Positions 32,681 through 47,912 of a stretch of DNA of 64,000 nt are shown here, one piece after another. Source of the stretch: Acidobacteriaceae bacterium (GTDB lineage Bacteria; Acidobacteriota; Terriglobia; Terriglobales; Acidobacteriaceae); contig PLBY01000145.1 of assembly GCA_003134655.1 (NCBI GenBank), forward strand, positions 1 through 64,000, given 5' to 3'. Within the stretch, counting starts at the first letter, position 1, and each line of letters opens with the position of its first letter. The notes below the pieces were generated by a model. That model was not told the origin of the DNA, did not search any database, and saw only the letters and a list, made by a program, of their open reading frames with translations. The position numbers and the translations under genes were made by a program.

Positions 32681-32756
32681 CTCAGCGGCTGAAGCCGGCG
32701 GGACTGTGCGGCGCTAACGGCCCGACTGAAGTCAGGGCCCTTCCCGTTTTCGGTCG
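32681..32756. repeat. Dual-hairpin repeat, family F4, copy 1
   Basis: CTCAGCGGCTGAAGCC, a 20-base linker, then CTAACGGCCCGACTGAAGTC..GGGCCCTTCCCG. The same order of parts occurs at 42704 (inside hemD) and 47846. Confidence 0.65.
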
Positions 32757-32826: not shown

Positions 32827-32852
32827 CGCGGGCGGGGCGCCCGCGCCACATG
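32827..32852. repeat. REP-like palindrome, family F1, copy 2
   Basis: CGCGGGCG-ggg-CGCCCGCG followed by CCACATGTT. See 171 and 59177. Confidence 0.65.
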
Positions 32853-42174: not shown

Positions 42175-43032
42175 TTAACCCTCAAGACTTCGTACGATTG
42201 CTGCCACCAGGCCCGGGATAGTAAATTCCTTCGCCGCGATGTCGACTGGCATGCCGAGTTCGCGCAGAGTGGCTGAAGTGACCGGGCCGATTGAGGCCAT
42301 CCGAATTCCATCCAGTGATGCGGGTCGCGTTCTCTGCGCCGGACCCAGCAATTCCGCAAAATTCTTGACCGTCGAGGAACTGGTGAACGTGACTACGTGC
42401 GGGCGTCTCTTGGGATTCTTCAGGGCGGCACGCAGGCGGGCGCGAGAGGATTGGGGCACTACGGTTTCGTAGGCTTCGACGACGTCAACCTGGGCTCCGG
42501 CTTTACGCAGTTCATCGGGGATTACGTCGCGGGCCACTTTGGCGCGGACCAGCAGGACGCGCTTTCCTTTGACTTTCTTCTTCAGGCTTTTGACGACGGA
42601 TTCGGCTACGTATTCTTTGGGGACGACGTCGACTTTCATCCCACGCTGCTCGATGGCCTTCTTGGTGGCGGGGCCGATGGCGGCAATGCGCAACTGCGCG
42701 CCCCCAGCGGCTAGAGCCGGTTTTGATTTGGACCTCTTTACGGCAGGACTGAAGTCGTGCCCCTCCCTCGTCTTTTCCATTCGATCCCACATCGCTTCTA
42801 CGCCGTTTACGCTGGTCAGGATCAGCCAGTCGTACGTTTCGAGGCCCTTTAGCGCTGCGTCCAGGGGCTTGAAGGATTTGGGTTTGCGGATTTCAATGAA
42901 CGGGATCTCGAGCACTTCCGCTCCACGCTTGCGCAGTTCCGCGGAGAGCGCGCCGGCTTGATGCTTGGCGCGACCCACCAGCACGCGGATTCCGCTTAGT
43001 GAGGTGTTCTCGGGATTGAGTTTCTTTGTCAT
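42175..43032 (-). CDS. hemD: Uroporphyrinogen-III synthase
   Basis: A 285-residue enzyme that closes and inverts ring D of hydroxymethylbilane to uroporphyrinogen III. Two Rossmann-like halves are visible: LSGIRVLVGRAKHQAGALSA (12-31), LILTSVNGVEAM (70-81), LRIAAIGPATKKAI (114-127), then RVLLVRAKVARDVIP, VTFTSSSTVKNFAEL and IASIGP-like repeats. Residues 88-111 (REGHDFSPAVKRSKS..) are an in-frame copy of a dispersed repeat and absent from the usual family pattern. It is the last gene of the minus-strand tetrapyrrole run, 61 bases after paiB. Confidence 0.9.
   Translation of the reverse strand: MTKKLNPENTSLSGIRVLVGRAKHQAGALSAELRKRGAEVLEIPFIEIRKPKSFKPLDAALKGLETYDWLILTSVNGVEAMWDRMEKTREGHDFSPAVKRSKSKPALAAGGAQLRIAAIGPATKKAIEQRGMKVDVVPKEYVAESVVKSLKKKVKGKRVLLVRAKVARDVIPDELRKAGAQVDVVEAYETVVPQSSRARLRAALKNPKRRPHVVTFTSSSTVKNFAELLGPAQRTRPASLDGIRMASIGPVTSATLRELGMPVDIAAKEFTIPGLVAAIVRSLEG
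42704..42770. repeat. Dual-hairpin repeat, family F4, inside hemD
   Basis: CCAGCGGCTAGAGCCGG, linker, then TTTACGGCAGGACTGAAGTC..GCCCCTCCC. Same parts and order as 32681 and 47846. It encodes hemD residues 88-110 without breaking the frame. Confidence 0.75.
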
Positions 43033-43047
43033 GGTTATGGTTAGAGT

Positions 43048-43074
43048 GGACGGGCAGGAGTGCCCGTCCTACAC
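43048..43074. repeat. REP-like palindrome, family F2, copy 2
   Basis: GGACGGGCA-ggag-TGCCCGTCC, a perfect 9-bp stem followed by TACACAG. It lies in the gap between paiB and hemD. Confidence 0.65.
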
Positions 43075-47845: not shown

Positions 47846-47912
47846 CCAGCGGCTAAAAAGCCTCAGCTTCATCAGCAGCTTACGGCACGAGTGAACTCGT
47901 GCCCTTCCCGGT
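47846..47912. repeat. Dual-hairpin repeat, family F4, copy 3
   Basis: CCAGCGGCTAAAAAGCCTC, linker, then CTTACGGCACGAGTGAACTC..GTGCCCTTCCCGG with a perfect GGCACGAG/CTCGTGCC stem. Confidence 0.7.

Follow-up and report, generated by a model that had tools for sequence, protein, structure and literature searches.

How does a dispersed palindromic repeat come to be read as protein in the middle of uroporphyrinogen-III synthase, and did it enter that enzyme once or many times? The question is raised by hemD in the 64-kb window (the whole stretch of DNA that was analysed, contig C84 of the 8.05 Mb assembly G000). A sequence-only reading had described a composite repeat in three copies of the same order, one of them in frame in hemD. 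Both descriptions are confirmed here: copies are found at 32683, 42705 and 47847, and the second is read in frame as residues 88-112 of the hemD product. The consensus unit consists of hairpin 1 (CAGCGGCTnnAGCCG), a linker of about 20 bases, hairpin 2 (GGCACGACT GA AGTCGTGCC) and the tag CTTCCC, with a recognisable length in the window of 63 bases. The features are as follows.

42175..43032, minus strand: hemD, uroporphyrinogen-III synthase, 285 aa; Pfam HEM4 at 1.3e-68, scored on the ORF with 12 extra N-terminal residues; one match in G000
42705..42719, plus strand: hairpin 1 of the hemD copy; CGGCT/AGCCG stem with 0 mismatches; part of PALAAGG in the minus-strand reading
42742..42761, plus strand: hairpin 2 of the hemD copy, GGCAGGACT GA AGTCGTGCC, with one broken pair; read as part of REGHDFSPA
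42762..42767, plus strand: hairpin-2 tag of the hemD copy, CCTCCC; the usual form CTTCCC is GGGAAG before the stem on the other strand
32683..32745, plus strand: second copy, intergenic; hairpin 1 at 32683-32697, imperfect hairpin 2 at 32719-32739, tag CTTCCC
47847..47909, plus strand: third copy, intergenic; hairpin 1 from 47847, hairpin 2 at 47884-47903 with a perfect stem, tag CTTCCC

The repeat unit in the window and in the genus

Hairpin 1 matches CAGCGGCTnnAGCCG exactly at 42705 and 32683 and has a longer loop at 47847. The hairpins 2 at 42742-42761 and 47884-47903 each differ by 2 mismatches from the 28-base pattern used, and that at 32719-32739 has a stem made imperfect by one extra base. 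Hairpin 1 alone gives 60 matches at ≤3 mismatches against 38.5 expected, which is modestly above chance, so the evidence lies in the composite unit and in hairpin 2. The hemD copy is placed on the strand opposite to the coding strand, with a spacing of 37 between hairpin 1 and hairpin 2. Folded as DNA, it does no better than shuffled sequences (z -1.09; other strand, z +1.21), and neither does the copy at 32683 (z -0.94), whereas the copy at 47847 folds well (z -3.27). With its stem mismatch and its poor fold, the hemD copy is decayed and, on our reading, old. A palindrome of another family, GGACGGGCAGGAGTGCCCGTCC, is located just upstream of hemD, and GCGGGCGGGGCGCCCGC is the further other-family palindrome of this pair in the window (43048-43069 and 32828-32844).

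The repetition of the unit extends through G000, as had been expected from the window. In this 8 Mb genome the hairpin-2 pattern gives 16 rows at ≤1 mismatch and 24 at ≤2, some of the latter probably by chance, given 14 + 17 rows for the reversed control at ≤3 mismatches. A 20-base hairpin-2 core at ≤2 mismatches is present in 44/45 genomes of the genus, where the reversed-pattern control gives one hit in one genome; the largest count for a single genome is 65 rows, some palindromes being counted from both strands. In a phylum sample of 297 genomes, the stem-neutral core GGCACGNNTGAANNCGTGCC is found in 24/32 of the same family, the window genome included, and in 5/265 others (control, one hit; the split by family was counted from rows). 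The stem variants occur in matched pairs (AC/GT, GC/GC, CC/GG, AG/CT and AA/TT), and pairing is therefore kept where the letters change. The commonest tags are CTTCCC, CTGATA, CTACCC, CTTCCA and CTTTCA. The unit is thus a dispersed repeat of this Acidobacteriota genus. A second, more numerous family (GCGAGGGCGGGACGCCCTCGC + GCCGGCGGGGACGCCGGC) has at least 42 matches in G000, for instance C75:68987-69046 (L374), with one copy in frame in Lhr; the RAYT gene at C137:86522 (L022) is flanked by hairpins similar to this family.

Filled and empty loops in HemD and other proteins

We measured the HemD loop between two anchors, the helix with VEAMWDRM and the strand LRIAAIGPAT, both of which are present in 38 HemD proteins of the genus. 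The loop is short in 25 of these (exactly 18 aa in 22, 17 aa in two and 24 aa in one, G017) and long, 34-56 aa, in the remaining 13, here called carriers. Beyond the genus no alignable block corresponding to residues 88-111 was found, in agreement with the original reading: the loop is 18 aa in 15/15 family outgroup HemD proteins examined (the top scorers among 224 family genomes outside the genus that gave a match), and the solved HemD 1jr2 aligns poorly there. The estimate of about 23 added residues survives as a coding length but not as a gain. The unit codes for about 24 residues, and the net gain in the window HemD is only 16 (34 against 18 aa in relatives) since the old linker has been lost in part; the net insertion in G002 HemD is 78 bases. 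Judged from these homologues, the HemD insert is a true in-frame insertion.

With its two loops removed, hemD has a dN/dS of 0.17 between G000 and G013 and is therefore constrained, not decaying. An AlphaFold2 model of the protein has a mean pLDDT of 89.4 and places the insert between helix 75-87 and strand 115-118; the blocks over residues 91-110 score 54 and 46, where most others exceed 90, and the modelled loop is probably disordered. The best structural matches of the model are solved HemD proteins, 1jr2 first, and the nearest named relative by HemD is a MAG, Acidobacteriaceae bacterium, isolate palsa_142. A second loop, TSSSTV...LDGI (about 229-241 of P0001), looks equivalent to the first in the other HemD domain; it holds different inserts with an RGRxRHTSL-like peptide in several genomes (L028, L033, L038, L047, L054, L156, L166 and others), also beyond the genus.

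Hairpin 2 is read as REGHDFSRA or a variant in 10/13 carriers. These ten, with the GGCACG-type hairpin, share loop, orientation and reading frame, while the other three (G024, G031 and G034) contain a related hairpin with another stem and tag, read as WKSG(A/P)SGPR. In the closest relative, G013 (L027), an extra 36 in-frame bases with their own palindrome sit inside hairpin 2 as a nested insertion, and in G044 a 15-base duplication gives REGHD twice.

A hemD DNA tree was built from 51 rows without the two variable loops; 20/48 inner branches are strongly supported, and G010, G028, G030 and G118, which have no anchor motif, are absent. On this tree the carriers need 10 changes, at least 6 of them forced by well-supported branches. 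In 51/500 label shuffles no more changes are needed than for the real carriers, which are therefore scattered almost as if at random. Constraining them to one clade costs 192 log-likelihood units and is rejected (p-AU 5.6e-29). Since the carriers are scattered, we favour recurrent insertion into the one loop, and consider it likely that the insert is a non-autonomous REP-type element, linked to a RAYT transposase, that has entered the hemD loop repeatedly in this genus. The loop would then have been filled by repeated gain rather than emptied by repeated precise loss.

The main rival is a single insertion in the ancestor of the genus, which was then precisely excised many times while some of the copies that remained were homogenised; to it we give a minor but real share of the probability. 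IS200/IS605-type Y1 transposases are able to excise scarlessly. Non-carriers are mostly exactly 18 aa long (22/25), the 24-aa loop of G017 could be a remnant of a loss, and the common loop, orientation and frame of the ten GGCACG-type carriers would follow directly from one event. In four lineages, moreover, the unit begins at the identical loop residue, 13 after MW (alignment read by eye). This shared start hints at a preferred target and counts for precise loss as well; random insertion followed by selection does not by itself predict it, which is a caveat to our reading.

The hairpins themselves bear on both readings. Across 21 pairs drawn from 7/13 carriers, hairpin 2 and its tag agree at 20-28/29 bases, against a fourfold-site identity of 32-56%. 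The pair G002/G023 matches at 28/29 bases with a fourfold identity of 47%, and G002 and G044 are likewise near-identical at about 47%, so that an ancestral insertion would need homogenisation. Some pairs have at most 20-22/29 bases in common and differ at 7-9/29, as an old insertion would allow, and the argument from near-identity thus rests on part of the pairs. Against a single insertion also stand the up to about 10 exact losses that it requires, the empty loops of all the family outgroups examined, and the three carriers with another stem and tag. For shared RPE sites in Rickettsia, the choice between one old insertion and insertion hotspots is left open in the available text of PMC3767692.

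Insertion inside genes is not peculiar to hemD. We sampled copies at ≤2 mismatches from four genomes (G000 in part, G001 and G002 for all matches listed, G003 in part), counting identical contexts once, and likewise the palindrome L236, which is seen from both strands. In G000, 17 of 30 loci were taken and those without a core-pattern match dropped, leaving 12 copies. Of the resulting 97 copies, 18 are in-frame parts of an ORF whose coding signal is present to either side of the copy (3/12 in G000, 4/43 in G001, 10/33 in G002 and 1/9 in G003), as assigned by a codon score for which the cut-off is arbitrary and the training set, ORFs of the window, contains hemD itself. The hosts are MoaA, an Lhr-type helicase (twice), HemD (twice), PheT, HemW, MnmG, HemC, DusB, HpnE, PurL (two copies), a FAD-oxidase/Fe-S protein, a C26 peptidase, a metallo-beta-lactamase-fold protein, a DinG-like helicase (named from Pfam Helicase_C_2 + DEAD) and one protein without assigned function; the copy L246 is in a protein without a family match. 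A frame-blind test of 96 copies found 12 with strong same-strand coding signal on both sides, of which 10 keep the same frame, where a third would be expected by chance; the two out-of-frame cases may be neighbouring genes.

Solved homologues span the insert sites with no or few residues (flanking residues MnmG 154|195 against 160|154, HemC 310|335 against 257|257, PheT 456|491 against 527|527, MoaA 87|125 against 93|98, PurL 421|494 against 378|393). The HemC insert, a net insertion of 75 bases, is absent from 19/19 HemC genes of other genomes with a readable C-terminal end. Among 28 Lhr genes read, loop A was found in 27; it measures 36-81 aa in 7 of these genomes and 9 or 14 aa in the rest, and most of the long A loops contain readable hairpins of more than one family. 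The MoaA loop after TGGEPLLR, parsed in 29 of 30 loci (L344-L373), is long (41-82 aa) in 18 and short (27-29 aa) in 11, the sister G013 among the latter. The MoaA pair is not a clean comparison of empty and filled: G013 lacks the insert, but its loop also differs. Two further observations concern these loops. Lhr loops A, B and C (L284-L313) are lengthened in frame in different species, many with palindromes of different families, and the MoaA hairpins belong to at least two families, mostly in the orientation opposite to the hemD copy.

Retention of the inserts for a function, either an mRNA hairpin that tunes translation or a useful surface peptide, is improbable, at about half the weight that we give to an ancestral insertion. 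One spacing is favoured among in-gene copies: hairpins 1 and 2 are 37 apart in 12/18 of these against 11/71 other copies (Fisher p 4.4e-5), the prevailing spacing outside genes being 36 (40/71), with 8 further copies lacking a measurable spacing. This test was chosen post hoc, it counts two Lhr copies and two HemD copies that lack independence, and hairpin 1 was located with a tolerant pattern, the strict one losing 10/19 in-gene rows. Perfect in-gene hairpins, as in G002 and G023, would also suit a function, but the hemD hairpins of G000, G029 and G001 are decayed, the linker residues of the HemD insert vary between carriers, 25/38 HemD proteins of the genus do without the insert, the same behaviour is seen in unrelated proteins, and the peptide is modelled with low confidence. 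The peptide would be neutral, tolerated by the fold.

Slightly less probable again is a spread of the filled loop between species by short hemD recombination tracts instead of transposition. The tree was made from hemD without its loops, and a loop-only tract would yield the same scatter of carriers, but the linkers and hairpin-flanking residues differ between carriers, and within the four genomes examined the same units are also found in other genes and between genes. That an ordinary variable loop resembles the unit by chance can be dismissed: although other organisms' HemD aligns poorly there (1jr2) and hairpin 1 alone is common, ten genomes of the genus code the same GHDFSRA-like peptide at this place, 100 shuffles gave 0 hairpin-2 matches of such quality, and the unit has matches in G000 at E 1e-8 over most of its length.

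A candidate transposase clade

RAYT-type genes (PF01797; RAYTs are REP-associated Y1 transposases of the HUH class) are present in 43/45 genomes of the genus. The best-scoring RAYT locus per genome was considered as the match and rejected, with often another hairpin (CCCGGCGTTGAAACGCCGGG + CTATT and kin) or none detected at its ends; the matching clade emerged only from a second locus sample. Its loci were found by tblastn, and 30 (one per genome) of 57 matches were examined, 11 of them with ≥60% identity to a reference RAYT of G025. That G025 gene is flanked by inverted copies of hairpin 2, the 3′ copy bearing the tag CTTCCC; in the wide sense, the clade of this gene is found in 30/45 genomes. 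The RAYT L271 contains the motifs MPDHVHLL (HUH), IWQ (WQ) and YIHRNP (Y..NP), which are nearest to subclass 2.7 in the table of PMC6006769, as far as its accessible text goes.

A GGCACG-type hairpin 2 flanks 10/11 of the RAYT genes with ≥60% identity (7 on the 5′ side, 9 on the 3′ side and 6 on both, some stems being counted with one mismatch), and nearly all of the flanking hairpins come with the GAAG/CTTCCC tag, in some cases changed at one base. In L341, the eleventh, the CTTCCC tag accompanies a variant stem (GGTGCGAC). L316 and L318 have, in addition, a hairpin-1-like stem placed inside the 5′ end, before the gene. Among the more distant members other stems and tags occur: CGCAGCGCT with GGGTGG, GGCACGCC or GGCACGGC with TCAG, GGCGCGCC with GAAAG and kin, and GCGGCGC with TCTTCCACG. 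Hairpins of some of these kinds are found in the Lhr and HemD loops, and the related RAYTs L331, L333 and L340 have a GTGG tag. Across L314-L343, a stem and tag of its own tends to go with each RAYT group, as though enzyme and hairpin had diversified together.

At E 1e-15 the cognate clade has no match in G000, and either mobilisation in this genome is past or the gene was missed by the assembly. The RAYT at C145 was rejected as the cognate enzyme: two hairpin-2 copies adjoin it, and its own ends have a different hairpin set. The region G000:C145:1300-3450 (L021, L023) comprises a RAYT-like gene, an end of several hairpins and a partial second copy, with two direct copies of a stretch containing hairpin 2 between gene and partial copy. 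The earlier description of a very active element is not supported for G000, given the modest row counts, the decayed hemD copy and the lack of a close cognate RAYT.

These findings are consistent with the following course of events. The element would consist of the tag, hairpin 2, a linker of about 20 bases and hairpin 1, and the RAYT clade with the same hairpin and tag at its gene ends probably moves it, or moved it, in trans as single-stranded DNA, both the catalysis and the mechanism being what we infer. Most copies lie between genes; for one inside a gene to survive, it would have to preserve the reading frame in net length, be read in a frame free of stops and be placed in a surface loop that tolerates it. 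The hemD loop between helix 75-87 and strand 115-118 would be such a site, entered repeatedly in the genus. A broader notion, which we hold tentatively and believe somewhat less than we doubt it, is that RAYT-moved palindromes are a regular source of new protein loops in this genus, several families repeatedly entering a small set of loops in HemD, Lhr, MoaA and further core enzymes, to some degree at exact preferred positions, and with a frame-suited linker length predominant inside genes. With 45 genomes, filled and empty orthologues, several hairpin families and probable transposases, gain, loss, targeting and tolerance become directly measurable. For annotators there is a warning that about one fifth of the copies examined in four genomes (18/97) appear to be read as protein.

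Relation to known systems

The closest match is the REP/RAYT system, with which the unit shares a short palindromic repeat dispersed in many copies (44/45 genomes), the same palindrome flanking the RAYT gene in inverted orientation (10/11 on one side or both, 6/11 on both) and a transposase with HUH, WQ and Y..NP motifs (L271). REPs usually exceed 100 copies, according to the accessible part of PMC2817692, and there are fewer here. Where the stem foot would canonically have GT[AG]G, the unit has GAAG (CCGGGAAG). Unlike REPtrons and REPINs, the mobile unit consists of two unlike hairpins and has a sizeable share of its copies inside genes.

Intragenic GTAG/CGTC REPs were reportedly described by Di Nocera and colleagues in 2013; the unit lacks the GTAG or CGTC end of these super-families. 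In the available portion of PMC3733652, REPs inside coding regions occur as dimers or groups coding for 20-30 residues in genes of tRNA and DNA metabolism, and recB of two Xanthomonas species is filled at about the same site. Since in-gene REPs are in print, even at about the same site in two species, the kind is already known. In that portion, Acidobacteriota are mentioned for their TIR-flanked transposases and not for repeats inside genes. Non-autonomous elements derived from IS200/IS605 likewise have subterminal hairpins and a guide-like tetranucleotide at the foot (PMC6006769, accessible part); the likeness here is one of hairpin and tag sequence. A full-text literature search covering papers open without subscription found no intragenic repeats of Acidobacteriota and only PMC3733652 and PMC6006769 as relevant, by their accessible text.

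The sequence-only reading had likened the unit to Rickettsia palindromic elements (RPE), and the likeness holds for its in-frame insertion in protein genes though not for its kind. As described in the available text of PMC3767692, RPEs are 100-150 bp palindromic repeats of Rickettsia and Wolbachia, read in frame in housekeeping genes at solvent-exposed places, with orthologues filled at the same site, PheT among the targets as it is here, and an ATGAC motif in RPE-4/-6/-7. That motif was not seen, by eye, in the consensus hairpins and tags. Host and length also differ, the nearest named relatives being Acidobacteriaceae MAGs and the unit 63 bases long, and, unlike RPEs, the unit has two different hairpins, a GAAG tag and a flanked transposase gene at hand. 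Judged by these features, the unit works like an RPE and is by kind a REP/RAYT-type element with a GAAG tag. What seems new, within the literature searched, is the Acidobacteriota host, the two-hairpin GAAG unit, its correspondence with a RAYT clade, and a tree on which one loop is filled repeatedly.
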